From the IMG/VR virus record IMGVR_UViG_3300033148_008625, positions 1 through 20,950 of that record: a stretch of 20,950 bases of DNA; one strand, given 5' to 3'. Origin of the DNA: a virus. The position numbers were made by a program, and so were the translations under genes. Positions 1,111 through 18,100 of this stretch are shown here, piece after piece. Each line of letters opens with the position of its first letter. Positions within the stretch are counted from its first letter, which is position 1. Under the pieces are notes generated by a model, which worked only from the letters and a program-made list of their open reading frames with translations, searched no databases and was not told where the DNA came from.

Positions 1111-1186
1111 CGGCCATGTCTTGATAGACGGTGTTTTGGGAAGGCATTTAGCAAGGAAGTGGAAATTGAGAATATAGGAGGGGATA

Positions 1187-1264
1187 ATGAGCGCCAGCCA
1201 GATTGCGATAACTGGAGAAGAGCTTTTGGCATTAGGGCTCACAATTGCTCAACTTCAACAATAA
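1187..1264 (+). CDS. Tiny ORF, 25 aa (MSASQIAITGEELLALGLTI...)
   Basis: This ORF is too short for most gene callers, but it has one of the best ribosome binding sites in the block: ATAGGAGGGG ends 3 bases before the ATG. The 25-residue product is hydrophobic and helical with an IAQLQQ end, and carries no Cys, Trp or charged cluster. It could be a micro-protein or a leader that couples translation to the next ORF, whose ATG is 3 bases after this stop. Without codon statistics on so few codons the call rests on the ribosome binding site and the position in a gap. Confidence 0.4.
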   Translation: MSASQIAITGEELLALGLTIAQLQQ

Positions 1265-1267
1265 GCA

Positions 1268-1375
1268 ATGGAGTTACCTTATTATAGCCAACATAGAAAA
1301 CTACTAGAAAGTTTGCTTGTAAATTTAGAAAGGGCTCAAAAAGAGTGCCTAAGACGGTTGCAGAGAGCATGCTGA
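1268..1375 (+). CDS. Tiny basic ORF, 35 aa
   Basis: The ATG is 3 bases after the stop of the 25-aa ORF, so re-initiation is plausible; there is no good ribosome binding site of its own. The product is a basic amphipathic helix with two Cys near the C-terminus (KECLRRLQRAC). Function is unknown. It is immediately followed by a non-coding segment with a strong hairpin. It could be spurious. Confidence 0.3.
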   Translation: MELPYYSQHRKLLESLLVNLERAQKECLRRLQRAC

Positions 1376-1474
1376 ATTAGGGACAGTGGATGACGGACAC
1401 CACATAAAAAACGGCTATCAATAGCATGTGCGTCCCCTCTGCGACCGCTTAGCCAATTGAGAGCATAGAAAAAG
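1376..1474 (+). other. Non-coding spacer containing a strong hairpin (1395-1435)
   Basis: No gene-like frame fits here. Bases 1395-1435 fold into an extended hairpin with three stem segments. GGAC (1395-1398) pairs with GTCC (1432-1435), CACAT (1401-1405) with ATGTG (1426-1430), and GCTAT (1414-1418) with ATAGC (1421-1425). An A-rich bulge, AAAAAACG, lies on the 5' side. There is no U-tract after it, so an intrinsic terminator is unlikely. It may be a regulatory RNA element, a processing site or the leader of the gene starting at 1475. Bases 1436-1474 show nothing else I can name, and the same is true of 1111-1186 upstream of the tiny ORFs. Confidence 0.4.
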
Positions 1475-1663
1475 ATGACCGAGAAACAGCAAGCAATAGA
1501 CTTATTTAAGAAAAGAATTGAAGAATTGATTGAAAAGAATCCTCGACAACTGCCTCAGTGGACATATGCTGACCTAATAGGAGCGGCATATCTAATTGAG
1601 GAGTATTCTTATCAGTTGGATTTCATTGCTCGACTGGAGAAGGCATTGTCGAGGAGGGTTTGA
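1475..1663 (+). CDS. Small helical protein, 62 aa, unknown
   Basis: The product is a soluble, charged helical protein: a Lys/Glu-rich first helix (residues 3-22), a QLPQWTYAD turn, then a second helix with several Tyr. No family is recognised. The ribosome binding site is weak: GAGAGC lies about 10 bases upstream of the ATG, and it follows the hairpin at 1395-1435, so its translation might depend on RNA structure. This is inference only. Confidence 0.6.
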   Translation: MTEKQQAIDLFKKRIEELIEKNPRQLPQWTYADLIGAAYLIEEYSYQLDFIARLEKALSRRV

Positions 1664-1703
1664 ATAGTAAGTGAAAGGAAATAATAAAAGTGAAGGAGAA
1701 AGC

Positions 1704-1901
1704 ATGAAAATGTTAGCCTTATCTATAATCATAGTAGCACTTATAGGCAACACACTAAATACAGCCTATAAGCTATATAAACTGCAATATCGAATAGAGC
1801 GGATAGAAAATAACTACCAGCACCTTTTACATCGAATAAACGCAATCGAATATCCAGAAGTGCTTGGAAAGGGAGATCGAAAGGCAAGCAATGGTGGCTA
1901 A
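1704..1901 (+). CDS. Small single-pass membrane protein with coiled coil, 65 aa
   Basis: I prefer the ATG at 1704 over the in-frame GTG at 1671, because GAAGGAGA lies just upstream of 1704. With this start the protein begins directly with a hydrophobic segment (residues 2-17, including LALSIIIVALIGN). A tyrosine-rich helix and a heptad-like stretch (about residues 28-52) follow, typical of a small inner-membrane protein with a cytoplasmic or periplasmic coiled coil. The layout recalls phage Rz1-like, RexB-like or superinfection-exclusion peptides, but no family motif decides. It overlaps the next gene by 11 bases. Confidence 0.65.
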   Translation: MKMLALSIIIVALIGNTLNTAYKLYKLQYRIERIENNYQHLLHRINAIEYPEVLGKGDRKASNGG

Positions 1902-2121
1902 AGAGATTGACAATTACAAACCATATAAAGGTTTCTACGACCTCCGGGACTTCAAGTTGCCTAAAAAGATCTTTATTCGATTGTGGAAGTGTCAGGCTAT
2001 CCTATCTGAAATGAGCGAGAACTCTGATTACTATCAGAGATGGCATCCCTTTCAATGGGAGGCAGCGCAGGAGTTAAGTGCAACGTATCAGTCAATTCTT
2101 TTTACAAAGAGAAAAAGATGA
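1891..2121 (+). CDS. Small aromatic-rich phage protein, 76 aa
   Basis: The ATG at 1891 has GAAAGG about 6 bases upstream and overlaps the previous gene by 11 bases. An in-frame TTG at 1864 would add nine residues and is less likely. The product is soluble, basic and rich in Tyr, Trp and Phe (YYQRWHPFQWEAAQEL in the second half). I do not recognise a family. It ends with a basic KRKR tail and is followed 12 bases later by the next gene. Confidence 0.65.
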   Translation: MVAKEIDNYKPYKGFYDLRDFKLPKKIFIRLWKCQAILSEMSENSDYYQRWHPFQWEAAQELSATYQSILFTKRKR

Positions 2122-2133
2122 AGGGAGATCTAA

Positions 2134-2343
2134 ATGAAAGACCCATCCGAGGTGGTCAAAGCAATATTGGATAACTATGAACCTATTGAGCCAGGGAACT
2201 CCATTGGAGATAGCGCTCAACTAATAAACGGGCAATGGTACGCTCCCAAGTGGGGATGTGATACGTTGCAGCATGTTATTGAGACTATTGAGCAATTAAG
2301 CGGAGAAGAAGGGGAAAAGAATAATGAAAATCAAAATCTTTAA
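2134..2343 (+). CDS. Small phage protein of unknown function, 69 aa
   Basis: AAGGGAG lies about 6 bases before the ATG. The product is acidic and soluble, with a helical N-terminus, a loop-rich middle (NGQWYAPKWGCDT) and a helical Glu-rich end. There is one Cys and no recognisable active site. The last 20 bases overlap the next gene in another frame, and that overlap encodes only the Asn/Glu-rich C-terminal tail. Confidence 0.65.
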   Translation: MKDPSEVVKAILDNYEPIEPGNSIGDSAQLINGQWYAPKWGCDTLQHVIETIEQLSGEEGEKNNENQNL

Positions 2344-2512
2344 AAGAGTAATACGTTATACATTTGATAAATTCCAAAAAGATCAACAAAAAGCGTGGCA
2401 GCTATTAGATCAATTAGATCCTTTTTATAAAGAACCTTTATCTCCTAACAAGCTAATCAACTCTGACCTGGATTCCGCTGCGCTTAAAGCTAAAGGAGGG
2501 TTAAGCATATGA
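2324..2512 (+). CDS. Small basic helical protein, 62 aa, unknown
   Basis: The ribosome binding site AAGGGGAAAAG lies inside the previous gene and ends just upstream of the ATG. The N-terminal third is basic (KIKIFKRVIRY), which could bind nucleic acid or a membrane surface. The rest is an amphipathic helix and a Pro-containing loop. The stop overlaps the next start by 4 bases (ATGA), so the two are probably coupled. No family is recognised. Confidence 0.6.
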   Translation: MKIKIFKRVIRYTFDKFQKDQQKAWQLLDQLDPFYKEPLSPNKLINSDLDSAALKAKGGLSI

Positions 2513-2883
2513 AAGCATTTTTTGGTTGGTATTCAATAATATTCAGCGTTCTATCTTTATTGATATATATTGTTGATAAATCGCCAATTCAGGCAAACTA
2601 TTTTATGTTGGTAGCAGTTTTAATCTTGGCTAAAGAATGGAGGGTAGATAAAATGATACACTATAAAGAAACAAAATACGGTTTTGAGTTTGGCGATGCA
2701 AAAGTTAGTCGCTTCTTTCAAGACGAGAAAAAAGGCTGGGTTACTTTGGGTATAGAATCATCAAAATATCAGGGTAACAGAGCTATACAAATTTATGTAA
2801 CCAAAACAGGGAAAATCAGGATTTTTTCACGTGAAGGTGAATGGTTTCCCAAAGACAAAAGTAAAGATAAAAAAGGAAGATGA
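2509..2883 (+). CDS. Two-TM membrane protein with a small soluble C-terminal domain, 124 aa
   Basis: AAAGGAGG upstream of the ATG and an ATGA overlap with the preceding gene fix the start. Residues 4-21 and 30-43 are hydrophobic and can form a membrane hairpin. From residue 45 a soluble domain begins, with several beta strands (GWVTLGIES, AIQIYVTKTGKIRIF) and a basic Lys-rich tail (KDKSKDKKGR). If the tail is cytoplasmic this would be an inner-membrane anchored regulator or exclusion protein; that is inference. I cannot name the family. Its beta-rich domain and position beside the 65-aa membrane protein make it the best candidate in the early block for an envelope function. Confidence 0.7.
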   Translation: MKAFFGWYSIIFSVLSLLIYIVDKSPIQANYFMLVAVLILAKEWRVDKMIHYKETKYGFEFGDAKVSRFFQDEKKGWVTLGIESSKYQGNRAIQIYVTKTGKIRIFSREGEWFPKDKSKDKKGR

Positions 2884-2892
2884 GGATTGATA

Positions 2893-3132
2893 ATGAGTTA
2901 TATGAATACAGATAGATATAAAAGGATAACTCCCGAGGTTGCTATAGAATATGATGAACATTGGGCAGAGGTGCTGGAACTTGCTGAGAAATATGGTTTT
3001 ATTAGGCAAGGATACGGTGGAGTTGCTATATTAGCAACACATCAAAATATTGATGAGATAGAAGTCCGTCAGGTGCAACCGAGCTATGAGGAAACTATAC
3101 GATGGATTACAATGGACTCAAAACAAAACTAA
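2893..3132 (+). CDS. Conserved small phage protein, 79 aa
   Basis: I choose the ATG at 2893 over the in-frame TTG at 2887, because AGGAAGATGAGGA lies directly upstream. The body (residues 15-50) contains ELAEKYGFIRQGYGGVAIL followed by ATHQN, a pattern I associate with small uncharacterised phage proteins of mobile regions. There is no membrane segment and no catalytic motif. The stop overlaps the next ATG by one base (TAATG). Confidence 0.7.
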   Translation: MSYMNTDRYKRITPEVAIEYDEHWAEVLELAEKYGFIRQGYGGVAILATHQNIDEIEVRQVQPSYEETIRWITMDSKQN

Positions 3133-3287
3133 TGGATGAGTTGCTCAAAGCTTTTGCAAAGCGCTATGACATTGAAAATTGCGATGACTGGGCTATCATA
3201 GAGTTGTATCTTGCAAGGGCGTGCAGTGTGCTTGAGCAAGCAGGATGGAAAAAGGAAGGGAAAGATGAAAAAATTAAAAACACTTAA
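3132..3287 (+). CDS. Small protein, 51 aa, unknown
   Basis: The ATG at 3132 overlaps the upstream stop as TAATG, the usual coupling in this operon. An upstream in-frame ATG at 3102 would create a 31-base overlap and has no better ribosome binding site, so I prefer the shorter form. The product is helical, with a CDDWAIIELYLARAC core and a basic Lys-rich tail. No family is recognised. Confidence 0.55.
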   Translation: MDELLKAFAKRYDIENCDDWAIIELYLARACSVLEQAGWKKEGKDEKIKNT

Positions 3288-3307
3288 CAAATTTAAGGAG
3301 GTAAAAA

Positions 3308-3613
3308 ATGGATAGAGGCATTTTAAGAACACCTATTATGGAAGGGTCTTCTGAGCCGGAAAGGACTCCACAGGTTGAAGAACAAGTGAAGCATGCTTAT
3401 GGAGCTTTGGGAGATTTAACATCTGTTGTAAATGAATTGGGAGAAAGGCTTACAAAAGTAATGAGGGAACCCTATCCAGAGCAAAAAGATGAAGAAAAGG
3501 AGCGCCTTGGAAAAGTACTTGTACCTTTAGCTGGAGATATAAGGTCAATTTCTGAGCATATTGAAGCACAAACTGCTAAGCTCAGGGATTATCTGAATCG
3601 GCTTGAGTTGTAG
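3308..3613 (+). CDS. Helical coiled-coil protein, 101 aa, last gene of the plus-strand operon
   Basis: A near-perfect AAGGAGG sits 6 bases before the ATG. The product is highly charged and almost entirely helical after residue 20. It has two amphipathic stretches (about 25-50 and 65-99), consistent with a small oligomerising protein. No membrane segment or motif gives a function. It is followed by a structured spacer and then by the convergent lysis block. Confidence 0.75.
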   Translation: MDRGILRTPIMEGSSEPERTPQVEEQVKHAYGALGDLTSVVNELGERLTKVMREPYPEQKDEEKERLGKVLVPLAGDIRSISEHIEAQTAKLRDYLNRLEL

Positions 3614-3641: not shown

Positions 3642-3715
3642 ATCCTTGTGGGTAGCCTTTTAACGACCTTGGCCTTTTTGCTCCTAAGTTCGGTCAGCTT
3701 GGAGACCACAAGGAT
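3642..3715. terminator. Long inverted repeat between convergent operons, possible bidirectional terminator
   Basis: ATCCTTGTGG (3642-3651) is perfectly complementary to CCACAAGGAT (3706-3715), separated by 54 bases. Inside, GACC (3665-3668) can pair with GGTC (3692-3695), so the RNA may form a branched structure in either orientation. The right arm overlaps the last base of the holin stop codon. The place, where two operons meet, fits transcription termination. The long loop and lack of a clean U-tract are not typical of an intrinsic terminator, so a structured RNA remains possible. Confidence 0.35.
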
Positions 3716-4236
3716 TATTTATTAGCTAAAAGTTTTGTCTTATCGGCTGAAGACCTTGAACTCCCATAAAAATAATTAAGTACCATCCCAAAGCCAGCGG
3801 CAAGAGCACCAAAGAGTTGATTGATTGGCCCTATTGCGCTTTCTGGTAATGGCTTGAAATACATCATTCCAGTCATCACAAAAAAGCCTGCTATCACCGT
3901 CCAAGCCAAAGCATAGAGATTAATATCCCTTTTCCCAGTAACTTTTGTAATTTCAATTTCCCTTTGTCTGGCATTCCTTAGATCATCAAAATATAGTCGT
4001 TTAATCTCCAATCCATAATCAGCTTCAATTTCCTTTAATTTAACTAATTGGTCTGGATTGGCAGCTATATTTGTAATATTAGCAGGCGTGAGGTTCTTCT
4101 CTTCAATGCCAAGTTTGGAACTGATTAAAGAAAGCGCTGTTTTTGCTGCCAGTCCGCCCGCCGGGCCGCCTAATGCAGTCCCCAAAGCGGGAAGACCTAT
4201 ATTTAATAGCTTTTTGCCGACTTCTTCCCAACGCAT
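3715..4236 (-). CDS. Holin, three-TM type (GTA_holin_3TM-like), 173 aa
   Basis: The product probably forms inner-membrane lesions that release the endolysin at the end of infection. The N-terminus has a Gly/Ala-rich hydrophobic helix (about residues 12-40), then a charged helical linker, then two clear membrane helices (about 106-127 and 134-157). The end is the hallmark YFYGSSRSSADKTKLL, which is the C-terminal pattern of the GTA_holin_3TM family as I remember it. TAGGAGGG upstream supports the start. It is the last gene of the minus-strand block, 30 bases after the serine protease and two genes after the M23 peptidase, the normal place for a lysis cassette. No separate spanin genes are visible. 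Confidence 0.85.
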   Translation of the reverse strand: MRWEEVGKKLLNIGLPALGTALGGPAGGLAAKTALSLISSKLGIEEKNLTPANITNIAANPDQLVKLKEIEADYGLEIKRLYFDDLRNARQREIEITKVTGKRDINLYALAWTVIAGFFVMTGMMYFKPLPESAIGPINQLFGALAAGFGMVLNYFYGSSRSSADKTKLLANK

Positions 4237-4266: not shown

Positions 4267-5157
4267 TTATTTCTCCTTATTCTTTTTCTCTTCTATCTCT
4301 TTCTTTCTAATTTCAAGACATTGATTTTCTGTTTTCTCTGGATTGAAAATAAAATCATAATGTTCTTTTTCAAGCCACTTATAGATTCGTTCAATAGGTA
4401 TAAATAACCCCATATGAGGGACAGGATTTCCCCAGCCAACAATAGGAACTAAAGAAGGTATTCCTATCAATTCACCTGTCTCTGCTAAAAACATAGCTCC
4501 GCCTGAATTGCCATATATTATTTGACTTGAACTCATATGAAATGGGAGAGAATCTATCTGAAAATTTAATCGAGTAATACATCCAGTAGTAGGTATAGGC
4601 GGAAAACCCAAGCTACACCCACAGGCAACAGTTTCATCCATTACTTTATATTGTACATCGGGTTTTGGAAGAACAGCAACATAATCAATTTTCTCTTCTG
4701 ATCTCAATTTGATAAGCGCCATATCTTCATTTTTATTGTAGAGAACAATTTCTGCCTCAACCTTGAGAGTACCTATCGGAGTAGAAAGATTACGATATTT
4801 AAATATCTCAACATAAACTATGCCTCTCTTTTCTTTTTTAACATCTTTTTGTAAATTGCTGTCCCATTCTTTTGTTATGGTAATAGCACCATCTATGACA
4901 TGATAGTTAGTCAGAATATAGGTTGAATAAATTGAAGAATCTGCCTCAGTTTTTTGTGAGTATACCAATGTTCCTGAACCGCCAACCAGACCCTGTGTTA
5001 CTCTCACAATGGGATAGATGTATTTCTCATGAGCTTCCTTACCATTCATATAAGCAAACACCATGCTTGGCATTACCGAAAGGCAAATAAGTATTAAAGC
5101 CCCCAATGTAATGCCTATGGTTATTAGCCACGATTTTGTTTGAGTAAAATTTCTCAT
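4267..5157 (-). CDS. Membrane-anchored trypsin-like serine protease, 296 aa
   Basis: This is a chymotrypsin/HtrA-fold protease. The triad can be read directly: His86 in ILTNYHVIDG, Asp145 in NEDMALIKL, and Ser218 in IYGNSGGAMF, with an early GGSGTLVY strand. Residues 10-37 form one hydrophobic segment after a basic N-terminus, so the protease domain should sit in the periplasm on an inner-membrane anchor. A Lys/Glu-rich helix closes the chain; no PDZ domain is present. I choose the ATG at 5157, preceded by GTGGAGGAT, over an in-frame GTG at 5169. It lies between the M23 peptidase and the holin, so a role in envelope breakdown, virion protein processing or cleavage of host envelope proteins is plausible. 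The substrate is unknown. Confidence 0.85.
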   Translation of the reverse strand: MRNFTQTKSWLITIGITLGALILICLSVMPSMVFAYMNGKEAHEKYIYPIVRVTQGLVGGSGTLVYSQKTEADSSIYSTYILTNYHVIDGAITITKEWDSNLQKDVKKEKRGIVYVEIFKYRNLSTPIGTLKVEAEIVLYNKNEDMALIKLRSEEKIDYVAVLPKPDVQYKVMDETVACGCSLGFPPIPTTGCITRLNFQIDSLPFHMSSSQIIYGNSGGAMFLAETGELIGIPSLVPIVGWGNPVPHMGLFIPIERIYKWLEKEHYDFIFNPEKTENQCLEIRKKEIEEKKNKEK

Positions 5158-5182
5158 TTTATCCTCCACTAAAAATTAATAT

Positions 5183-5650
5183 TTAATCTATTTCCTGATG
5201 GTTGTCGATGAAAATTTCGGGGTCGCACCTCACAACCTCCACGTGAATATGCGGAGTTACCAAAGGATATTTTTTGCCTATATCCTGTGCAAGCCCGATC
5301 TCATCACCCATTTTTACTACTTTACCTATTAACTCAGGAAAAGGCTGCAAATAAAACATTTTAAGAGTTAACCGTTTTGCAGCAATTACTAATCCGCTAT
5401 ATTCCCCCTGCACATATGGTTTGGCTATTCGTACTATTATACCAGTCATAGGACTTCGGACTATTTGCCCGGGTACACATTTATAATCAGCCCCTTTATG
5501 GAGATAACGCTGGATTTTACCGTTAGCTAATTTCCGTGAGCGTGGCGAACCATAGTATCCCTTTCCCCCTGCATCATTTCTAATCCCTAAGCCTGTGGGG
5601 TTGCCACAACTACCTATGATTGTTTTTTTCTTCTTCCTGCACCAAAACAT
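5183..5650 (-). CDS. M23 family zinc metallopeptidase, likely endolysin, 155 aa
   Basis: The family cleaves peptide cross-bridges in peptidoglycan. The LytM-type zinc and catalytic residues are visible: His51 and Asp55 in HKGADY, and His134/His136 in TPHIHVEV. The supporting glycine-rich elements are also present (VRSPMTGIIVRI, and GKVVKMGDEIG before the final strand). The chain is a single compact catalytic domain with no cell-wall binding domain. The N-terminus (FWCRKKKKT) is basic and not a signal peptide, so release probably depends on the holin. I use the ATG at 5650; an in-frame TTG at 5659 would add three residues. The ribosome binding site is weak in both cases. A tail-associated peptidase is the alternative, but the neighbouring holin favours lysis. 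Confidence 0.85.
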   Translation of the reverse strand: MFWCRKKKKTIIGSCGNPTGLGIRNDAGGKGYYGSPRSRKLANGKIQRYLHKGADYKCVPGQIVRSPMTGIIVRIAKPYVQGEYSGLVIAAKRLTLKMFYLQPFPELIGKVVKMGDEIGLAQDIGKKYPLVTPHIHVEVVRCDPEIFIDNHQEID

Positions 5651-5666
5651 CTTCTTCAACTGATTT

Positions 5667-6665
5667 TTAAAAGGCTAAACTCGGTTGAAAGGGTTTTTCC
5701 AGTTTAGCATTTTTTATGTTATTCTTTCTTGCTGGCAATAATTGGAGATTACTTAATGCCCAACATTTCTGAAAATCTATATCCGTTGGCTTTTTAAAAT
5801 TAAAGGCTGATTTTGGTATTTTGTGATCAATCTGAAGTTTACCATTAAAATAATCATCCCAAGTATAACCTATAGGAATTGTCTTTGCCAAATGTTTAAT
5901 AAGTTCATCTAATGTATAAGGGACTAAAGATTCCCAATGATACCCATTTTTATTTCTTTTTAACGCTTTATACATTGAAGTTGCCATATTTTGGCTTAAT
6001 CTACCTTTCAGTGTAGATCGACTTTTTATATAATAGTTGCGTTTCTTTTCTTTCAATCTCTCTGGATAATTTTCTTTATATTGTTTTCTACGTTTTATTA
6101 CTTTTTCAGGATTATTTGCCCGCCATTCTTTTGCTTTTGCTCTCATTTTTTCACGATTTTCAGCATAGTATTTTCTTGCATTTTCGTTCACTCTTTCACG
6201 ATTATTTTTTTGCCAATTCCTGTTAAGAGTTTTTAGCTTTTCAGCATTGTTTATTCGATATTGTCTTCCATACTCTTTTATGTATTCCGAATTATTTTCA
6301 TCATACTGTTTTTTGTATTTCTTTCTTTGTTCTGAATGACTTTCTCGCCAAAGTTTATTCTTCATTAATTCTTTATCTCGATTTTTAATATAGTATCTTT
6401 TTCTTGCTTCTTTTGCTTTTTCAGGATTGTTTTTTAACCATTTTCTATAAGAAGCTAATGCCCTTTCTCTGTTAGCTTCTCTCCATTCTCGTTTTTTAGC
6501 TAAAATATGTTCCTTATTCTTTCTATACCATTGCAAATATACGCTATTTGTGCATTCTTTACATCGAGATGCTCTACCATCCTCAGCCGTTTTACAATGA
6601 TGAAATTCTTCAAGGGGTTTCTCAATTCCACACTTAGAGCATAGTTTAGTTTTTATTTGTATCAT
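5667..6665 (-). CDS. HNH endonuclease with zinc finger and twelve-unit aromatic repeat, 332 aa
   Basis: A treble-clef-like zinc site opens the protein (Cys9, Cys12, Cys35, Cys38). A long, strongly basic helical array follows (residues 43-215), built from 15-residue units. Each unit starts with Trp or Tyr and most contain an NNPEK-like helix cap. The C-terminal domain holds the HNH core: Asp280-His281 in LQIDHKIPKSAF, Asn306 in SNLQLLPARKNN, and a final Lys/Asn cluster. This is the layout of free-standing phage homing-type nucleases, which cut double-stranded DNA and copy themselves into new sites. It overlaps the end of the upstream gene by 20 bases, has almost no ribosome binding site, and is AT-rich (28 % G+C over 6241-6300). 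These signs fit a mobile insertion. Confidence 0.85.
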   Translation of the reverse strand: MIQIKTKLCSKCGIEKPLEEFHHCKTAEDGRASRCKECTNSVYLQWYRKNKEHILAKKREWREANRERALASYRKWLKNNPEKAKEARKRYYIKNRDKELMKNKLWRESHSEQRKKYKKQYDENNSEYIKEYGRQYRINNAEKLKTLNRNWQKNNRERVNENARKYYAENREKMRAKAKEWRANNPEKVIKRRKQYKENYPERLKEKKRNYYIKSRSTLKGRLSQNMATSMYKALKRNKNGYHWESLVPYTLDELIKHLAKTIPIGYTWDDYFNGKLQIDHKIPKSAFNFKKPTDIDFQKCWALSNLQLLPARKNNIKNAKLEKPFQPSLAF

Positions 6666-7065
6666 TTTTAATATTTTCTTTGTCGATAATTCTCTTTATT
6701 ATATATCCACTTTTAGGACTTCCTTTACAAAACGGACAGGTGAAGACCCCCATCTCCCGGCCCGATGGCATCTGAATAGGAATGTAACCTCTGCCTTCAC
6801 AATCAGGACATTTTACGAATTGATGTTTGATCATCTTACCTTCAAATAACTTGCAATGACTTTTATCCTTCAACTGGGATTTTAATGCTTTCTTTTCTAT
6901 CTTCTCCATTCTTTGTTTACCAGCCTCAAATCGCTCTTCTGTTTTCTGGATGTGCTCTCTTAACGTTTCTTGAGTCTTAATTCCTGTTTCAAACAGAATG
7001 CCTAACTTGGCATCCGTATTTTCAAGTTTATCAAAGTCCGCTCGATTTACAACCCCATTACTCAT
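6646..7065 (-). CDS. Coiled-coil protein with DnaJ-like CxxCxGxG zinc cluster, 139 aa
   Basis: Residues 10-62 form a charged helix likely to be a coiled coil. Residues 86-114 hold two Cys pairs: CPDCEGRGY (Cys86, Cys89) and CPFCKGSP (Cys110, Cys113). This is the zinc-binding pattern of the DnaJ central domain, but with only two half-sites. A basic Lys/Asn-rich tail follows. It lacks a J-domain, so it is not a DnaJ co-chaperone as such; a zinc-bound structural or assembly protein is more likely. The start overlaps the stop of the barrel gene as ATGA, indicating coupled translation. The HNH gene begins inside its last codons. Confidence 0.7.
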   Translation of the reverse strand: MSNGVVNRADFDKLENTDAKLGILFETGIKTQETLREHIQKTEERFEAGKQRMEKIEKKALKSQLKDKSHCKLFEGKMIKHQFVKCPDCEGRGYIPIQMPSGREMGVFTCPFCKGSPKSGYIIKRIIDKENIKNDTNKN

Positions 7066-7706
7066 AACTGAACCCCCAATGCTAACACTAAACTTAAATC
7101 ATTCTTTTCACCTATTGACATTGACCTATATTGGTCGGTTAATATCAATTTTAAAGATAGCTTCGATGTAATGTCTTGTTTAAAAGAAGCCTCTCCAGTG
7201 AAAATGTAATCGTCAAAATCCTCAAGATTTGGCTGGTAAAATATTACTGCCTTAAATTGATTTATTTTACCTTTAAGCCTAAACGAAAGTCTATTCATAT
7301 CAAAGGTGTCATTCTCAAGTTTTTTGTGGTGTTGGAGAAGCCCAGCGGAGATAGAGAAGTCTTTGTAAAAGGTATACTTTGGCCCTCCGCCAAAGAAATT
7401 CTCAAAGTCTATGTTTCTGATTTTGTTATATCCAACTTGATCATAGAACCAAAGAGACCATTTCTCATTAAGTTTCGGGTCATATCCTAAACGCAGGAAA
7501 GCCTTATTTTCAACTTCTATATCATCCTGCTCGCCATAATTCAGTTTACCTGTTAAGCCGATTCCCCTAATCTTGGTATCAACTCCAAGATATAATGACT
7601 GAGAGTCTGTAACTCCTGATTTGCTGGATAAGCCTAAATCAAGATTACCTGCAAAAACAGGGTTGATTGATAAAAGTAATCCTAATATGATTGGTATTAG
7701 TTTCAT
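7062..7706 (-). CDS. DUF481-type outer-membrane beta-barrel protein with Sec signal, 214 aa
   Basis: The signal peptide ends at a textbook site (residues 1-19, NPVFA then GNLDLG). The mature part is a run of amphipathic strands with alternating aromatic and polar residues (LRLGYDPKLN, GGGPKYTFYKDFSISAGL, FTGEASFKQDITSKLSLKL). It ends in a typical barrel C-terminus, although the last residue is Leu rather than Phe. Strand layout and the GPKYTFY segment match what I know of the DUF481 (YdiY-like) family. CAACAGGAGACAC supports the start. It should sit in the host outer membrane. Such proteins are rare in phage genomes; receptor masking or superinfection exclusion is possible, but that is inference. 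Confidence 0.8.
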   Translation of the reverse strand: MKLIPIILGLLLSINPVFAGNLDLGLSSKSGVTDSQSLYLGVDTKIRGIGLTGKLNYGEQDDIEVENKAFLRLGYDPKLNEKWSLWFYDQVGYNKIRNIDFENFFGGGPKYTFYKDFSISAGLLQHHKKLENDTFDMNRLSFRLKGKINQFKAVIFYQPNLEDFDDYIFTGEASFKQDITSKLSLKLILTDQYRSMSIGEKNDLSLVLALGVQL

Positions 7707-7851
7707 AGTGTCTCCTGTTGTAAAATCTGCTTCCGTTTGGCATGGGTTTCCTTTTTTAGATTTAGTTGTCCTTTTATGCTCTATTCATAACTGTAGTATT
7801 CGTTGAAACTGAGCAAGTTGAGAATATTTTAATTGGCCGCAAGTTCATTAG

Positions 7852-9894
7852 TTATGGTGTTGGATCAGTCCAATATGGCACATATTTTCCTGGCGAAACT
7901 TCTATCCAACCATTAGAAGTAGAATTATTTACAGACCCCATTTTAACAGTACCTGTACCAGTTGAAGCGGCTATAAAATACTTGTCTGCATAAAAAGCGG
8001 CAATTGACCAATAAACAGATGAATCATATTTAATAACTGTAAGAGCATCAAGCCTGCCAGTCAACGTCACTGTTGCACGATCACCAACTCTCTCTGATTC
8101 ATTTCCATCAATAATTAAGTTATTATTTGGAGAGATTTTGACAAACGTATAGGTTTTACCCTCTGCTACATTTGCCAGTGGAGGCAAAGTAATTGTGATG
8201 TCGTTATCATTGGTATTACAAACTATAAATTCGTCATTTTTACTTGGTGTATACGAAGAATTGGCTGAAGTAACATGGTGGAAACTTTTTCTCTCATTCA
8301 GTCCATCCGTAACATCGAGTGTAGCAAAATTTACGGCATCTCTCCCTATATATTGCACTTCTCCGGAATTGGTTTTATACTTTGTAAGAGTTGCTCCAAC
8401 ATCGCCGATAACAATAATGGGTTCTCCTGCACCAGAATAGTTTGTTAATTCTGCTGCGTCTTGATCCTCCACCTCTTCCCAATAATTTCCTTCAAATGTA
8501 GTACGAGTATATTGACCATCCAATTCGACTCTATCGCTACCAGCAGCTCTTTCTACTCCACCATCAGTTGCCTTGTAAAAAATATTGAATTTAAGTAAAT
8601 TGCCATTCCCATCATCTATACGGAGATGGGTATAGTTATGTTCAAAGGCGTTTAGTTTAACAATATTTGTATCAAATAAACCACCAGATACATTTTCTCC
8701 GTGCAGACGCAGTCCATATCTCCAATTATAGAAATGACATTGGAATATTTCATTAAAGTTTGAGCAATTATTACCAAGGCCTTCGGGATCTGCGCCATTA
8801 ATTTCTAATCCAGTTGCATTATGCGTTGTATCATCTCCGCTCCCGCAAAAATAGATTTTGCTGATTTTGCATTTTCTCATACCGTAGCGGGCATGAATTC
8901 CAATTCCACCATTATTAAGATCAGCACCATTCAGATAAAAGTTTTTATATTCATTGTCTATCAAGCGACCATCAAAACGTATCCCGTAATCTGATCCAGA
9001 GGTGATTTTGAGTTCTGAAGTCCAGAAACTATCGCCAATGATACTTAAATATCGAGATGTAAAAGTAGCTTCAGATATATAATAAGTACCTCTGGATATA
9101 TGTAGCGTGCCATCTCCTGCTGCATCTCCTGCCGATTGAAACCCCGCAGGTGTATTAGGAAACCAAACCAACTCTACGGCACTAACGGCTGCCCTCCCAA
9201 AACTCACACTCCCATCCCCACTAAAACACTGAGACAACCCATGGTTAAATGGGCCATTGATGGTAATCCTATACCCAGCCTTCACATAATCTTCTGCTTT
9301 TCCATCTGGGTCTGTGCTATCTGAAAGCCGTACATAAACCGTACTGTAACCAAGAGTATCATTATCCGCCCAGTCCCATTCACCTGCTGCAAGAGAACCC
9401 GCAGTCCCTGCTGTTAGATCAGAACCGTCCTCAGTACAAACATAAGGCTCACTTATTCCAGGGTCTCCGCCTGCTGCCGCTTCAAGATAGTATTCACTTG
9501 TCCCACTTCCACTTGCAGTCCATTTGTAACTTGCATTACGGATAGAAATATCATTGTTAATAACAGCTCCATTTTCTATCTCAAGGGTAATGTTGGAAGG
9601 TATGGTTTCGCTGGTAGATAGTTGGTAGGTAGTCGTATTTCCTGTGCCATTATGAGTTAATTTAATAGTCGCTTTCTTATCCGTGCCAATAGCATCTACA
9701 TAGGCTTTTATAGTTCTACCATTCCCGGTAGCCCCTTGATCTGTCTCACCTGCATTGGGATAGTATGTCTGTGAATTTACCACGTTAGGCCATGGGATAT
9801 AAGTAGCATAGGTATCTGGCTGTATTACCACAGAACCTACAAATCCGCCAATGGCAAAAGCTAAAGCAATTAGTAGTATAGTTAATTTTTTCAT
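7852..9894 (-). CDS. Secreted beta-helix fibre or tailspike-like protein, 680 aa
   Basis: A basic start and long hydrophobic stretch (residues 2-24) form a signal peptide or membrane anchor. The mature protein begins with a phage-fibre-like segment (GNGRTIKAYVDAIG, about 57-70). It continues with a Thr/Asn-rich region including YSTVYVRLSDSTDPDG, also familiar from phage fibres, and a right-handed beta-helix of pectin-lyase type (about 262-480). The C-terminal segment (about 535-630) has the NDITITLPPLA pattern common near the ends of viral fibres. It fits host-surface or polysaccharide binding, possibly cleavage, though I cannot place catalytic acids. The signal sequence is odd for a virion fibre. 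The ribosome binding site (GAAGAG) is modest. Confidence 0.8.
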   Translation of the reverse strand: MKKLTILLIALAFAIGGFVGSVVIQPDTYATYIPWPNVVNSQTYYPNAGETDQGATGNGRTIKAYVDAIGTDKKATIKLTHNGTGNTTTYQLSTSETIPSNITLEIENGAVINNDISIRNASYKWTASGSGTSEYYLEAAAGGDPGISEPYVCTEDGSDLTAGTAGSLAAGEWDWADNDTLGYSTVYVRLSDSTDPDGKAEDYVKAGYRITINGPFNHGLSQCFSGDGSVSFGRAAVSAVELVWFPNTPAGFQSAGDAAGDGTLHISRGTYYISEATFTSRYLSIIGDSFWTSELKITSGSDYGIRFDGRLIDNEYKNFYLNGADLNNGGIGIHARYGMRKCKISKIYFCGSGDDTTHNATGLEINGADPEGLGNNCSNFNEIFQCHFYNWRYGLRLHGENVSGGLFDTNIVKLNAFEHNYTHLRIDDGNGNLLKFNIFYKATDGGVERAAGSDRVELDGQYTRTTFEGNYWEEVEDQDAAELTNYSGAGEPIIVIGDVGATLTKYKTNSGEVQYIGRDAVNFATLDVTDGLNERKSFHHVTSANSSYTPSKNDEFIVCNTNDNDITITLPPLANVAEGKTYTFVKISPNNNLIIDGNESERVGDRATVTLTGRLDALTVIKYDSSVYWSIAAFYADKYFIAASTGTGTVKMGSVNNSTSNGWIEVSPGKYVPYWTDPTP

Positions 9895-9935
9895 GGTTTA
9901 CTCTTCTATCTGTTTATAGTTTAATATATCAATTT

Positions 9936-10313
9936 TTAATAGACAAATCCACCATTACCCGTCAAATAAATTGTAATACCTTGGTAATCTTGATTCAATA
10001 CATAGTTGGCAATCATTATCCTTGGATTAGTGGCACTCCCTGAATTTTCATCTTCCGTTGAAATTATAATTGACCTTGCTGCTGCTGTATTATCCACAGC
10101 TATGATGTAATCCGTAGTTAATGTCGAGGGATTATAATCCGCTGTTCCGACTGCGGTGCGTTTCCCAAAAAGGCTTGTGTGGTATATCGCCGCTGGTGTA
10201 TCGCTACCGATTGCTCCCGGGGAAGCAGCGTTAAATCTTATCTCCGGTCCCGCATAGACAATATTAATCCCTAACAAAAGTATAAGCGAAAAGAATAAGG
10301 TAAATCTTTTCAT
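9936..10313 (-). CDS. Small Sec-exported structural-type protein, 125 aa
   Basis: TTTAAGGAGG just upstream fixes the ATG at 10313; a longer in-frame start at 10349 lies inside the previous gene and is rejected. The signal peptide is clear (residues 1-21, NIVYA then GPEIRF). The mature part has about 100 residues of Ser/Thr/Ala-rich beta sequence ending in ITIYLTGNGGFVY. This resembles the short beta-sandwich or head-decoration-like proteins found beside phage fibres, but no family is certain. The mature N-terminus (GPEI) resembles that of the upstream fibre (GPAI), hinting at a common design. Confidence 0.7.
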   Translation of the reverse strand: MKRFTLFFSLILLLGINIVYAGPEIRFNAASPGAIGSDTPAAIYHTSLFGKRTAVGTADYNPSTLTTDYIIAVDNTAAARSIIISTEDENSGSATNPRIMIANYVLNQDYQGITIYLTGNGGFVY

Positions 10314-10324
10314 GGTATACCTCC

Positions 10325-11569
10325 TTAAATTTCTTGTATTTCCAACCAAACGGTGGCTGTATCAATACCTGCTGACTCCGACTTTGATTTAGCTGATATT
10401 GCTATACCTTTGTTGAAAATAAATTCTGTTCCTGATGGAAAATTCGCAACCTTTCGCTTATTAACATTAGCCTCGCCCTCTACTTGAATATCCATAAACG
10501 TAGTTGTGCCATCATAGAGTTTTATTCTAAATTTTTCACTTGCATCTGCTTCAACGTGGATACCTGTAATTCTAAAAGGTTTAGTTGCGCTACCTGCTGA
10601 TCTTAATTCTACCCATGAGCCTGACCAAGTATCAGCTCCATCTCCGGTAGCTACGTTAATCCCTGTGAAATTATCCGGGGCAGTTTTGATAGGGAATGAT
10701 CCGATTATCCCATCCCAATGATGATCTCCCACTACATCATCAATATTAACTGTATTTCCATGAAACCTCAGATTTGAGAAGTGCTGTTCATTACCAGCAT
10801 CAAGATCTAATCCTAATGTGCAATCACCAATATCTATCGTATCAAAAAAATTCTCATCGCTACTTGCATGGATAATTTGGATACCCGTTAAACAGTCATG
10901 TATATGCAAATTCATTAATTCATTCCGTGAAGCATTATCCAACAATATTCCTGTCATGTGGGTTTTGTGGCCAACAAAATCAGAGTCATAAATCCTTCCA
11001 TGTTTAGCTGTTGCACCATCTATGTGTAATGCTGTTGCTGCACCTCCCAAATCCTCCCCTACAAACATGCAGTCATAAATCCGAAAACCACCATGAGTTA
11101 TTATAACGCCATTTCCGCTACCTGTGCCTAAATTAAAATTCAGTTTGCTCAACATCACTTTGCCTGTAAATTTCATAATAGAAGTAGCAGAGGCATGTGT
11201 ATTTTTTATCTTAGCCCAACTTCTTGAAGCTCCAGCAAGGATATAATTGCCTGTCCATGTAGGATCGCCTGCGGTATCAATATCATAATTGGTTGTATGA
11301 GGACTTATCATTATAAGGGTGCAATCATCAGCATCGGTGGAAGCGGCATCTAAAGCATCTTGTATCGTAGTATATGCTGTAGCCCAGGTTAAACCATCTG
11401 CCCCGCTACCATCAGGAGATACAAAGAGAGTAGCGGTAACTGCCCTACCAATGATACCTGCTCCACTTTCACTTTGACCAGGATTATGTGGAGAAGTAAT
11501 TGCAGGCCCCGCAGAGACAGAACTACTTAAAAAGAATGTCGCTAATAATATATAAAGATATTTTTTCAT
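10325..11569 (-). CDS. Secreted pectin-lyase-like beta-helix protein, 414 aa
   Basis: The ATG at 11569 overlaps the upstream stop as TGATG and opens directly into a signal peptide (residues 1-20, SSSVSA then GPAITS). A longer in-frame start at 11620 would bury that signal and is rejected. After a VSPDGSGADGLTWATAYTTIQDAL segment (split here as two motifs, residues about 50-73, the usual opening of pectin-lyase-fold exoproteins), short strands with turns such as GNGVIITHGG and RNELMNLHIHD build a beta-helix to about residue 290. A separate beta domain closes the chain. It probably binds or degrades surface glycans. Catalytic residues cannot be assigned by eye. Confidence 0.78.
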   Translation of the reverse strand: MKKYLYILLATFFLSSSVSAGPAITSPHNPGQSESGAGIIGRAVTATLFVSPDGSGADGLTWATAYTTIQDALDAASTDADDCTLIMISPHTTNYDIDTAGDPTWTGNYILAGASRSWAKIKNTHASATSIMKFTGKVMLSKLNFNLGTGSGNGVIITHGGFRIYDCMFVGEDLGGAATALHIDGATAKHGRIYDSDFVGHKTHMTGILLDNASRNELMNLHIHDCLTGIQIIHASSDENFFDTIDIGDCTLGLDLDAGNEQHFSNLRFHGNTVNIDDVVGDHHWDGIIGSFPIKTAPDNFTGINVATGDGADTWSGSWVELRSAGSATKPFRITGIHVEADASEKFRIKLYDGTTTFMDIQVEGEANVNKRKVANFPSGTEFIFNKGIAISAKSKSESAGIDTATVWLEIQEI

Positions 11570-12156
11570 CAGTATAAGATAAGTTTGATAGTTCCCGCTA
11601 TTGTTCCATCGATCATACAATAGGCGTTTCTTTCAGTTGTGTTATCCACCTGATCAACGCCATTTCCTTCAAGAATATCTAATCCACCTTGGTAAATATA
11701 TAAATCGCTATCTTCCGTTGGTTCAGCCGCTATTGTATAGGCATCTCCGACATCCCAGTCATTGTCTGTTCCGCCGGTAAGAGTAGCCGTTACAGTTGAG
11801 GCAGTATTGGCTGTAATAGTCCCGCTTGAGCCATCAGTAGTATTTGATATAGTATATCCTACAAATTGATTTACATCGAAACCAGCGTCGGTATCTGTGA
11901 GGACAGAGGCGTTAGCACTCCCGTCATGCGCTCCCGCATGGTCTCCATCAATAATGACCTGAAATAGAGACCAATATTTTAAGGGATAATACCTATTTAT
12001 GCCAGCGGTTGTATCATTGAGCGTCAGATCAGGTATTGAACCATCTGTGTGAGAGGCAACAAAGGTAATAGTGATTACCCTTATTACATCTCCAGTGTGT
12101 TCGTTTTTTACCGGGCCAGTGTCCATGAAATATAAAAGCCTAATTAATTTTTTCAT
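11569..12156 (-). CDS. Phage structural protein with Ig/beta repeat, 195 aa
   Basis: AAAGGAGTAAATAG precedes the ATG. The N-terminus (MKKLIRLLYF) is only weakly hydrophobic, so unlike its downstream neighbours this protein is probably not exported. Residues about 85-145 carry the FVGYTISNTTDGSSGTITA pattern followed by DWDVGDAYTI. This small beta repeat is common in phage structural and fibre-associated proteins. The C-terminus is a short beta strand (TIKLILY). It is the first gene after the giant polyvalent protein and overlaps the 414-aa secreted protein by one base, so it most likely belongs to the fibre or tail-tip set. Confidence 0.72.
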   Translation of the reverse strand: MKKLIRLLYFMDTGPVKNEHTGDVIRVITITFVASHTDGSIPDLTLNDTTAGINRYYPLKYWSLFQVIIDGDHAGAHDGSANASVLTDTDAGFDVNQFVGYTISNTTDGSSGTITANTASTVTATLTGGTDNDWDVGDAYTIAAEPTEDSDLYIYQGGLDILEGNGVDQVDNTTERNAYCMIDGTIAGTIKLILY

Positions 12157-12174: not shown

Positions 12175-15100
12175 TTATTCGTTGACGGCTTTTAATCGTT
12201 TTTCGATTTTTGGCGATTTGACAATAAGAGATTTATTCAATGCAAATCTTGCCAAATTAATCATATCCCAACAGTTCTCATTCATAAGTCTGCGTTTTTC
12301 TTCTGGTTCTAATTTATCATTTTTATATATTAATTGCACTACTTTTCTTTTTACACTTAAAGCCTTTGCTATTTCTTCATCATCAACGAGGCTCTGTGGC
12401 TTTGGCACACTAATGCCATATCCTCGTATTCCTGCCCTTTCTTTAGCGCTTTCCCATTTTCGTTTGCGCTTAATATATCGCTTATAGAATGTTTCTATGC
12501 TTCTTGTGTTTGCAGTAGGAAATCTTCCTGAAAATGCACGGATTCCAGGGATATCTGAAATAGTCATTGAAGGCTCAGGAGGAACATCGATTAACCCAGT
12601 TTTTTCAAGCAAACTGTCTATTCCTTCAAGGACAATTCTCCCAGCTCCACCCGTATATCCTCTGATAAGGTTTTGAATCTTAGCCGGAGATGCGTACTCT
12701 TTTAATCCAGGGATTTTGCTCATACCTTCCGCCAGAAGTTTAATAGTTTCAGAAGTGTAGGGAGCATATTGCAATTTAGGTTCAAGCTCTTCTCTGCTTC
12801 TCGGAACTACCGGACGGTCAAAAAATAATGTCCGGTTTGCAAACCATTCTATAGGGCCTATCGCAATTGTGGGGACTAAACTCGGAGTAGTTGATCGGAC
12901 TAAAGCCTTCAGGGTCTCTTTAAATCCTTCGGGATTTTTTGAATAGTACCAGTCTAACGCCAACTCTGGCACACTTCCAAATAAAACACCAGGCTCAAAT
13001 GGTTTGGGAATTGACCAGATGTGAACTCTTTTGTCTCCAATCTTCAACTCCCATTTAAACCCACTTTTACCTTTGAGTTTACCTATAAGGTCTTCTTTTT
13101 TAATTGTTCCAGGCCTACCATCCGGATATGTGATAATATTCCAAAATCCTATCCGTCTCCATAGCGGTATCTCCTCATAAACAGGATCATCTTTCTGAGC
13201 ATAAAACAGTAAAAGAGAGGGTAAAGTAATACCAAGTGCCACTTTTATCGAAGTCCTTGCAGGATGATCTTTAAACTCTCGCACCATTTTATCTACACCA
13301 TTGATCTGCGCTTGGAAAAAAGCAGTCATAGAGTTCATAGCTCTTGTTTTTAAACCAAGTTTTTGAAAATCTAAGGTAATATCTCTTGCAGCATAGGCAC
13401 GCTGGAGCAAAGCGTCTAACTCTGTCTGTTTTCCTTTCTTTACCTTTTTAGCTTCGTATTTCCTTCCAGCAAGAAACTCACCCATTCGTGTGCCTTCTTC
13501 AAACAATTCTGAAACAATCTGTACTGCTTCAAGGGGATGTTTAATCAGATGAGGAATATTTTTTACTCCTTTCCTCATTAACTCTCGAAGGTTTTTTCCA
13601 AGATAATTTCTGTCGATAGATACCAATGTCGCATGCGCAGCTCCGCTTGCATTAAATTCCTGCCAGTCTTTACTTTTTGCTATAATATGAAAAGCACCTT
13701 TCAGGAAATCATAGCCAGGGGTGAGACCATATTTTGTATATAGAAACGCTGTTAGTTGATCTCTTATAGGGTTTCGGATAGCAAACTCAGGACTAAATCT
13801 TGTCGCCCCAGCCCGCAACCATTTGGCTGGCATAGACGCTATCTGGGTTAAGGTACTTAATGATTCCTTATTAAGTGATAGAACGGCAGCATAAAGGTCT
13901 TTATCAAGTATAAATAGCTTTGGTTCTCCACGTTCATAAAAAATAACTTCTCCTTTTTGAGGATTATAATTCGGTCTGAATGTTAAAAGCATATTATCCA
14001 AGTCGATTTGATCAAGTCCAAATTCTGCAATGAATGTATTAAGATCGAGCCCCTGATCTTTGGCGATAGCTCTCAGAGCTTCTTTGCTTTTCATTTTAAC
14101 AGGTTTTAAGGGAAATGGAAGTTGCTCTATAACATCCCCCATTCCCTCCATTTTAGATATCTTTATAAGCGCTTCTCCCACCCTGTTTCTTTCAGCTATG
14201 TTGATCATGGCATAAGTGTTATACATAAGGCTCTCAATAGGATCGTGGATATCCCTTGACGAACCCTTCAATCTTTTGATAGGATTAAAAAGATTAGCAT
14301 ATTTTGTTCTGCTTAAACTTTTAAGAGAGGCTTCCCCATCCATCACACGATAGAGTGGTGTATAAAACAGATTCTTTTCTTTTATTCTGTCGGCCAATTT
14401 TTGGCTTATGCGCCCGGAGTCTACAAGAAACTCAATAAGATTATCAGAATACTCATAAAGTTTTTCCGCAGTTTCTTTGAACTCAGGTTCAAGCTCCTTT
14501 ACCGCTTGCTCAAAATCTTTTTTTGAGATTATTCCCTCAAATCCCTTTAAAATTCTGGGGTCGTTTATGGCTCTTTTGGCTACCAGATAGGTACTCAGCA
14601 TTTGTCTTTTGCCTTCTCTCTCAATAGGTGCAATAATATCATAGAGGGCTTCGCCTTGAAACACAACTCCTTTATCTTCTTTAAGCTGAAAGGGTTGCCA
14701 TCTTAAATATTGCTCTGCTTTTCTCACCCATCCTCTTGTATAAGTTGACAAGAGATAAGTACTTTCCGATGCTCTAAGTGCCTTTCCCGTCCGTTTCTTA
14801 ACTAAATTATCTAATACCTGAAAAGCTCTGATTTCATCCACTATCCAAGTGTACATTTCATTTATGGTAGGCAGTTGCTTCCGGCCATTTCCCTCAACAA
14901 TAAAAGAACTCACCTTAGCCACAGAGGGAGATGCTACCCAGTGCTCCCATGCCTGCCTTGCCTGAACAAGAGTATCTTGAACATCGGTATATCTAGCTAA
15001 TCTTTCCTCGAAGACCCGATAGAAGCCCGGAGCCTCTTTCTGTGCTTTCTTTTGATCAGTTACATAAAACCTAACAAACTCTGCGAAACCTTCTTGTGAT

Positions 15101-18100
15101 TTATTCTTAGCACCTTCATAGGCAAGGTTCATTACTTCTTTCGGCATCTTAGCAGGAAAGCCCAAAAGGTTTTGTATATGGTGTCCCACTTCATGCAGAG
15201 CATATTCAACATCATTGGCTTTTTTAATACGAACAACCTTTGCTTGTGGTTTATAGATTCCGCCAATTTTTACCTTACCCCTCTTGGCTCTGAATCTTCC
15301 TACTCTGATAGGTAATTCAAGGCGGTGAGATATTGTTTCAAGGATATTGTTTCTTTCAGCCCCTTCAGGTACTCGACCACCTTTGAGAGGGATACCCTCC
15401 TCTATTTTTCTACGACCAGATTCCGCCATAGCCATGACGCCAGAAGTAGTGGTTTCTTCCTCTTTCATTTCCCCATATTTTTTATCCCATGCCTGTTGTC
15501 TGCGTAGTTGCTTATCCTGTTTTAAAGCACTTGCATGAGGATTGACTAAAGGGCGTGGCGGGATTTTTCTTCCAGATATAGCACGCTTTTTAATTTCCTT
15601 TTTAGATAATTTCTCCTCAATTGTTATTTGTTCACCTTTCTTTTTGGGTAATAGAGATACCTGTTCGCCAGTTGTTTCTGTTTTGATTTTTTCAGTGGGA
15701 AAAGTGACTGTGGGTTTCGCTTTCTGTTTATACTCTTCCCAGAGTTCCTGAGTTACATAATCAAATTCACCTTCTTTTAATTTGGCAATCTGATTAATTA
15801 AGGCGGGGGCTTCAATGGATTTAGCGCTTGCTTTTTTAAGTCTATCCTCTAAATGCTTTATTTGTCTTTGAATGAATTGTTGTCTTAATTCTTTTTCAGC
15901 AATTCCCCTCCCCCTCAACTTCGGAGGAGCTTCTTCAGCCTTGAGTTTAAACTTGGGTTTAGCTTTAAGGATGGTAGTTTGGGTGGGTTTTTCTATCTCT
16001 TCAGGCTTAAAACTTATATCTTCTTCGAAGAAGGAATTGGTTTCTCTTTGGATTGATTCTCTTTCGGCTTTTGCAAATTCAGCCTCTTTCGCAATCTCAT
16101 CCGTAATCTCTCTTTTAAGAGATTCTTCCAAATCTCTCTCTTTGATACCATCGGCTTTTGCCTCCTCTATAGCTTCTTCACGTATTTTAGCATATTCTTC
16201 TACATCATGTCTATATCTTTCTTTAGCCTCTGATAAGGCAGCGTCAACTATCTCCTGTTGACGCACTCCTAACTTTTCACCTTTTAGTTCTAATTCAATC
16301 GCACGTGCAACTTCTTTGCCTGTCCATCCTTTCTTTTGCATGAACTCAGGGTAAGTTGAGGCTCTCCTGTATCCCCCTTCTTCATGTGGAATTCGTACTA
16401 CTCCACCTTCTTTTACTTCATCTAAGAGGATGTTAAGATAGTCATGGTAAGGGGGTTTCGCCTTCGGCGTGGGTTTAACCTTCGGAGCTACCTTTACTAA
16501 CGAAGACGGGGATTGTTTAGGAAGATATTTAGGTTCTATCACAGATATATCTTCAACTATTCTAAATAAATTTTTATTTGGTTTAAATACATAATTATAA
16601 AATTGTTTTTCATTGTAGTTTTTACTGTTTTTAAAACTTTTAAATTTATCATAAGTTTTTTGGGTTATTCTGATTTCTTCAACTTTATCCCAAAAATCAT
16701 TATCCCCCCTAAAGGATGTTCTAAATTCATCCCATCCATAAAATTTACCTGAATCTGCATCTACTGGTGAATATTTCCCTATTTTATTTTTGACATTTAA
16801 GACAAGGACTGTTCCTCTTCCATGTGAACCACCAAAAACTCTATTTGAATTCCTTGCTGTTGCAAAATTAATAGTTTCATGAGGTGCTACAAATTGTTTC
16901 AAATTTAATAATCCATCCCAAGTTGCAGCATGATATATTTTGCCAGAAAATTTTACTGGTTTTAAACTTTCTCCAAATCCACCCTTAACATGAAAAGTTT
17001 CTATAGGTTTATTTGTTTCGGGATCAACTATTTTCCATTTTTCTTTCCCCCCTTCGGCCTTCTTTTCCTCAAACTCCTTCGGTGTTACCTTTTTTTCAAC
17101 CTCTGTAGCCTTACCTATGGCTTGTGGATATTCTTTATAGTATTCCTTCGCCTGTTTGATAGCCTCTGCATCCGTTTTTGCATTAACAGCATCATACCAA
17201 CTACCATCTTTGAAATGGATAGTTTTACCATTTGCAAATGTACTAATAGATTTTACTTCTTTGTTATCAATTATAATTGATGTATCCTTACCTATTGCTT
17301 TTGGCTTTTCTTCGATTGTAGGGGCTATTTTGGGCTTCTCAGGCGGTTTTTTCGACCATTCCTCAAATGTAGGTGTCTTTGGTATCTCAATGCCTTCCTT
17401 CTTTAATGTTGCCGATGTGACTGTGCTCTTATCCAGTCTGCCACCTTCCACGTTGTATAAGGCTATATGATCGCCCTTTGCGGTCTCTCGCCAGCCTTTA
17501 AAAACAGCGGTAGGTTTAACCTCAACTGCGGATTTAGCAACTGGCTCACTTATAATAGGTTCTTTGGAGGGAACAGCTTCTTTAGCAATTTCGCCTTTTC
17601 TATATCCTTTCTCAGCTACAAACTTTTCAAATTCTCCCATATCCTGTTTTTTCAGTACCCGTAATATTTGAGCATCTTTTAGTCCTGCTTTCTGCATGGA
17701 TTCTATGCTTTGAACTATAAGACCACGTTCTTTATTGGTTAACCTTCTAAACCAGTTAGATTCAGTTAAGAACTTGCCAATAGGTTTATCTAAATTATTT
17801 TTTAAGAAAGGTATCTTCTGTAAGGCTACCCCTGCAAGTTTACCCACTCCTTTAAATACAGGCGGTGCAATCGCCCATCCTAATGTTTCTCCTAATATTT
17901 CATTCTGCTGTTCTTCTGTTGATTTCTTTTTAAATTCTTCCCAATCGGTCGGAGAAGTGAGCCACATCATTCCAGGCACAAGCCTTTGTGGAAATAGTTT
18001 CATAATAGCATATCGAGCAGCCATAAGATTAGGATTCTTGCGAGCCATTTCCATTTCATCTTCTGGTGTCCAATCTGTTTTCTCAGTTATGGCACTAACT

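Follow-up and report, generated by a model that had tools for sequence, protein, structure and literature searches.

Double-stranded DNA tailed phages are taught as assembling wholly in the cytoplasm. Why, then, would a tailed, lysing phage place Sec-type signals on one late gene product after another? The question is raised by an uncultured virus whose entire IMG/VR record, itself a fragment, was analysed here (IMGVR_UViG_3300033148_008625, 20,950 b; hereafter the window).

Signal-bearing genes of the late block

The genes concerned lie on the minus strand and are transcribed in the order small proteins, a 2161-aa polyvalent virion protein (12175-18660; phrog_9854, 8.5e-95; without a signal peptide score), p195 (11569-12156), p414 (10325-11569), p125 (9936-10313), p680 (7852-9894), a DUF481 outer-membrane barrel (7062-7706), two small genes, an M23 endopeptidase (5183-5659; PF01551, 1.1e-6; no signal), a trypsin-like serine protease (4267-5169; Trypsin_2, 8.2e-12) and, at the end of the late block, a holin-like membrane protein with a hydrophobic C-terminal half (3715-4236; phrog_1544, a family of unknown function, 2.2e-16). 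This order matches that of podovirus late genes; in T7 the fibre gene sits between gp16 and the holin. The 2161-aa protein, encoded directly upstream of the block, is probably ejected on infection, a role taken from its gene position, and the M23 protein is a probable endolysin. The protease scores 8.7 from an ATG at 5157 and, with this N-terminal signal or anchor, is a possible sixth exported protein. A 57-kb relative (G002, also L014) encodes at 1171-3396 a protease-like protein with an N-terminal signal or anchor that is longer than, and different from, the trypsin-like protease of the window.

The original prediction of four consecutive Sec-signal proteins within a virion and lysis block is borne out. 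p414, p125, p680 and the DUF481 protein begin with a basic n-region followed by an uncharged hydrophobic core, and score 8.7, 9.4, 9.6 and 8.6, respectively, with a hand-made scorer of n-, h- and c-regions for which 8 was the threshold in gene surveys. The three near-ideal cleavage sites with Ala before Gly were likewise found, namely VSA/G in p414, VYA/G in p125 and VFA/G in the DUF481 protein, all of the Ala-X-Ala type with small residues at -3 and -1. p680 combines a strong hydrophobic core with the absence of an ideal site, and its N-terminus could therefore be an uncleaved anchor. No lipobox cysteine follows the signal in the block proteins, the sites being of the signal peptidase I type, and a ribosome-binding-like site precedes most of the signal-bearing starts.

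In calibration, the scores of 13 E. coli signal peptides lay at 6.7-11.9 and those of a few cytosolic proteins below 0; lacY, one of two membrane proteins checked, reached 4.6. Scores of at least 8 were obtained for 57 of the 1970 non-redundant genes of at least 80 aa in related contigs (2.9%), which is probably an upper estimate since the gene set was collected around signal-bearing genes. At this background four consecutive signals would be expected with a probability of about 7e-7, so that chance is an unlikely explanation. Among the 135 CDS of the reference phages T7, P22, lambda, HTVC010P and Ab31 only Lom and three Rz spanins reach 8, and none of the virion proteins, fibres and spikes included, does, in keeping with the earlier statement that tailspikes normally carry no signal peptide. 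As the Rz anchors score equally high, the scorer cannot prove cleavage or separate anchors from cleavable signals.

Over about 14 kb the window has a near-identical counterpart in a sibling contig (3300033149_004619; L002/L023), from which it differs, without any SNP, only by nine clean indels at window positions of about 12123, 11595, 10009, 6859, 4499-4532, 3861, 2694, 1083 and 161. In the sibling the p195 ORF comprises 237 aa (p237) and begins with the signal peptide MKKLIRLLYFMIFLLMPLSAFGAAS, which the window has lost through a clean 57-nt deletion at the 12123/12124 junction; the window ORF for this small beta protein is also short of 69 nt near its 3' end, at about 11595. The 57-kb relative, whose homologue bears a signal too, supports the sibling's version, and the run is thus five signals long. 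Likewise, p125 has 139 aa in the sibling and a 42-nt deletion in the window, and the sibling protease is short of 34 nt that include the GNSGG motif. Because the indels are clean, gene-breaking and SNP-free in both contigs, they are likely to be assembly errors. At 6646-7065 of the window, loss of 32 nt has probably fused two genes into a 139-aa ORF; in the sibling, an 88-aa coiled coil that ends in a hydrophobic stretch and a 62-aa zinc-ribbon protein are encoded separately.

Folds and families of the block proteins

The AlphaFold2 model of p414 is a right-handed beta-helix of moderate confidence (pLDDT 71.7), which is followed by a C-terminal beta domain. It aligns with the tailspike domain of cyanophage Pam1 over 229 residues (VIA-align Z 24.1, rmsd 2.4), with alginate epimerases at similar Z and with periplasmic VexL at lower Z. 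Since enzymes match as well, the fold does not prove a tailspike role, and no virion-attachment domain is recognisable in signal-bearing p414. Of the two beta-helices originally predicted, only that of p414 is upheld by a model; the p680 model has a pLDDT of 32, and a helix in this tailspike-like protein is supported only through relatives, such as a 754-aa protein of G002 (tail spike phrog_7458, 4.9e-5; Beta_helix 4.3e-5, below cut-off). Residues 117-207 of p680 form a mobile 90-aa domain that recurs in many phages (L004-L012) on unrelated virion proteins. The short beta-rich domain of p125 has no Pfam match and looks like a fibre C-terminal domain, a type assigned by inference. The DUF481 barrel (PF04338, 1.7e-15; 58 bits versus a cut-off of 21.1) holds a position equivalent to that of Lom, which sits between the lambda tail-fibre genes; in all likelihood it is an outer-membrane protein of the Lom kind, distinct from the appendage proteins.

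Searches of the block proteins against PHROGs, and of the small signal-bearing proteins against PHROGs and Pfam, gave no match of weight. By tblastn against INPHARED no cultured relative was found for p414, p680, the DUF481 protein or a 173-aa protein of the GEVT family, and the archaeal tailed virus MetMV was the sole match of a 170-aa protein.

The original prediction had proposed looking for the signal in homologues. In the p414 family, compiled from 30 viral loci and one contig of a metagenome-assembled genome (MAG), it is present in L002/L014, L015, L131 and L137, and most copies lack it. A maximum likelihood tree built from the core alone, with the N-terminus left out, needs four signal changes, of which at least three gains or losses are forced by well-supported branches: signal-bearing L131 pairs with signal-free L136 (100/98), and signal-bearing L137 groups with signal-free L128 and L132 (99/95), which are themselves joined at 99/94. 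Signal-bearing copies inside signal-free groupings rule out a single signal-bearing clade. Moreover, 10 of 27 genes flanking signal-bearing p414 carry a signal themselves, as against 3 of 132 beside signal-free copies (Fisher 8e-7; locus permutation 0.003). These three all belong to L144 (JAHOYV010000039.1), a phage-like contig of 42 kb binned into a Gemmatimonadales MAG, where they flank a signal-free p414. L144 was the sole genome match; as its ORFs are apparently wholly phage, it may be mis-binned and does not give the host of the window.

In the p237 family the signal has drifted to 42% identity (first 25 columns) versus 85% in the mature part, with charge, core and site retained. The family is signal-bearing in five lineages (the window clade, G003, L082, L189/L190 and G004), and in each the next gene bears a signal as well; it is signal-free in MetMV, L191 and L192, and so is the next gene in each. 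An insert in p237 (GYTISNTTDGSSGT..., L002:1985-2698, residues 93-161) recurs in about 75 viral contigs and is another mobile domain, which the other members of this small family lack.

Recurrence in other uncultured phages

In at least five more uncultured phages, two to five signal-bearing proteins form a run, either in the fibre slot or next to capsid genes. The pattern was seen in some ten contigs that derive from several samples, counts of independent phages resting on contigs of a few metagenome series. In G002 p237, p414, the 754-aa spike-like protein and the DUF481 protein all have signals, the last with a score of only 6.4. A separate 349-aa signal-bearing fibre-like protein adjoins the portal gene of this phage, with a BppL_N-like stretch directly after the signal (2e-4, below cut-off). 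Neither the portal nor the capsid proteins of G002 carry signals, nor do the ejection-type proteins just upstream of the block. Among phages unrelated to that of the window, G003 encodes signal-bearing proteins of 173, 170 and 416 aa between capsid and connector genes, G004 two of 158 and 1148 aa, L082 four in a row, L189/L190 up to four, and L131 five, with one signal-free gene (249 aa) inside the run. In the window and the podovirus-like G013/L131 the block lies between ejection-type proteins and lysis genes, that is, in the T7 fibre slot. The signal-bearing families also occur without a signal in virion gene blocks of other phages; the GEVT family, for instance, has it in G003 and L170 and lacks it in L018 and L138.

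The most telling case is a 1290-aa protein of L170 (3300033144_001010; 6281-10153), whose residues 23-1290 match the phrog_376 tail protein (tail tubular protein B) with an E value of 2.9e-182 and which is present in a single copy in the 30.5-kb contig. Its start is preceded by an AGGAG-type site, and its N-terminus reads MKRFLILLLLCSVAFA/ENPYRILSNFNAGE, with a cut predicted before E (MKRFLILLLLCSVAFA/E). In tblastn searches of 180 phage records the top matches start at query residue 21 or later. HTVC010P, HTVC203P, Ab31 and vir555 have 7-10 residues ahead of the conserved [NS]FxxGE motif, and the cleaved L170 protein would have 8. Two further signal-bearing proteins are encoded nearby. The 653-aa fibre of L170 is free of a signal, and this, together with the signal-free protein inside the L131 run, rules out that all appendages of such phages are exported. 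In view of the L170 fibre and of a short signal-free fibre-like ORF in G002 (19741-20358), other receptor-binding proteins may exist.

Probable export and the possible fate of the proteins

The signals, their drift under constraint and their repeated and linked gain or loss are most simply read as export, which on these sequence grounds is likely for the signal-bearing set. As to what is exported, we tentatively favour, while rating it at somewhat below an even chance, that the block is a tail-appendage cassette in export form, and that the exported appendages join virions at lysis. Fibre and spike-family proteins with Sec signals would be translocated late in infection, signal peptidase I would cleave most of them to give a mature N-terminus that equals the protein's normal start, and folding would take place in the periplasm or at the envelope. 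DNA-filled heads would remain cytoplasmic until holin, endopeptidase and disruption of the outer membrane bring both pools together, and would gain their appendages at or after lysis. Translocation, cleavage and attachment at lysis are inferred steps. That the proteins are virion parts which come together with heads at lysis is favoured by the signal on tail tubular protein B, by the origin of the families and by their place in the fibre slot. P22 tailspikes attach to heads in vitro, and late attachment of appendages is thus physically plausible. We know of no precedent in dsDNA tailed phages for the attachment of exported proteins to heads.

But would the exported proteins have to reach the virion at all? 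It is a serious possibility, if a somewhat doubtful one and only slightly less likely than the first, that fibre-derived proteins have been redirected to act during infection in the periplasm or outer membrane, covering receptors, trimming glycans or keeping out other phages, instead of being virion parts. The clean signal peptides, the DUF481 barrel and signal-bearing protease nearby, the absence of a recognised attachment domain from p414 and its similarity to glycan-active beta-helix proteins (alginate epimerases, periplasmic VexL) as well as to tailspikes speak for such action, and lambda Lom and superinfection-exclusion lipoproteins, the latter encoded within structural gene clusters (PMC11893012), are precedents. 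However, action in the envelope alone leaves unexplained both the signal on the sole tail tubular protein B of L170 and the fibre slots filled mainly with signal-bearing proteins, and in a diderm host a Sec signal by itself leads to the periplasm, not to the cell surface. The original prediction had the proteins exported instead of built into the virion. This part is not supported, as the families are of virion-module type and signal-free elsewhere, the block fills the fibre slot and L170 has a signal-bearing tail tubular protein B; the unusual assembly route, which it gave as the other option, is at least as well supported.

That the hydrophobic N-termini do not serve export at all, acting as membrane anchors during assembly or remaining on the virion protein without cleavage to help in trimerisation, in contact with membranes or in ejection, we consider unlikely. 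Signal anchors such as Rz do score as high, p680 lacks an ideal site, and P22 gp7 and lambda B are annotated as virion proteins that are N-terminally processed outside Sec. Yet sites of the Ala-X-Ala or a similar type lie at the right distance in most copies and are retained despite sequence drift, and the signals are found on unrelated folds, clustered with other signal-bearing genes. Finally, chimeric assembly, misplaced starts or N-termini that are hydrophobic by chance are a very improbable source of the pattern, given its presence across some ten contigs and several samples, the RBS-like sites before most starts and the clean reference-phage control, even though the SNP-free, gene-breaking indels reveal imperfect contig quality and the scorer is hand-made.

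How would an exported appendage cassette compare with known systems? With the podoviral fibre and tailspike cassettes (T7 gp17, P22 gp9, Pam1 tailspike) the block shares the beta-helix fold of p414, the late slot between ejection-type and lysis genes and a small partner gene upstream of the large appendage gene; these known appendages, however, assemble in the cytoplasm without a signal peptide, whereas several consecutive members of the block carry one. Envelope morons (lambda Lom, Bor, mEp superinfection-exclusion lipoproteins) are likewise signal-bearing and encoded inside or beside structural genes, and the DUF481 protein is an outer-membrane barrel that resembles Lom in type and position. 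Morons differ in being single genes unrelated to virion proteins, whereas here it is the fibre-family proteins themselves that bear the tags, as many as five in succession. The L170 protein is a full-length homologue of the tail tubular protein B or nozzle proteins of phrog_376 (T7 gp12, HTVC010P gp13), but has a 16-residue Sec-type signal in front that five relatives lack. Signal peptides on virion proteins are known from phages whose coat proteins depend on Sec, filamentous ones among them; these phages, however, assemble in membranes and are extruded, whereas the window phage is tailed and lyses its host. Among the papers searched, few of them from subscription journals, none was found that deals with tailed phages whose tail appendages carry Sec signals.

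In more general terms it is possible, though on balance we would rather doubt it, that some lysing tailed phages finish their tails outside the cytoplasm, with Sec-exported appendages, and in one lineage tail tubular protein B, joining DNA-filled heads at lysis or already in the periplasm. If whole sets of appendage proteins have repeatedly gained export signals, either there is a second compartment for assembly or fibre genes have widely been turned into envelope effectors, and either would alter the annotation of signal-bearing phage genes in structural blocks.
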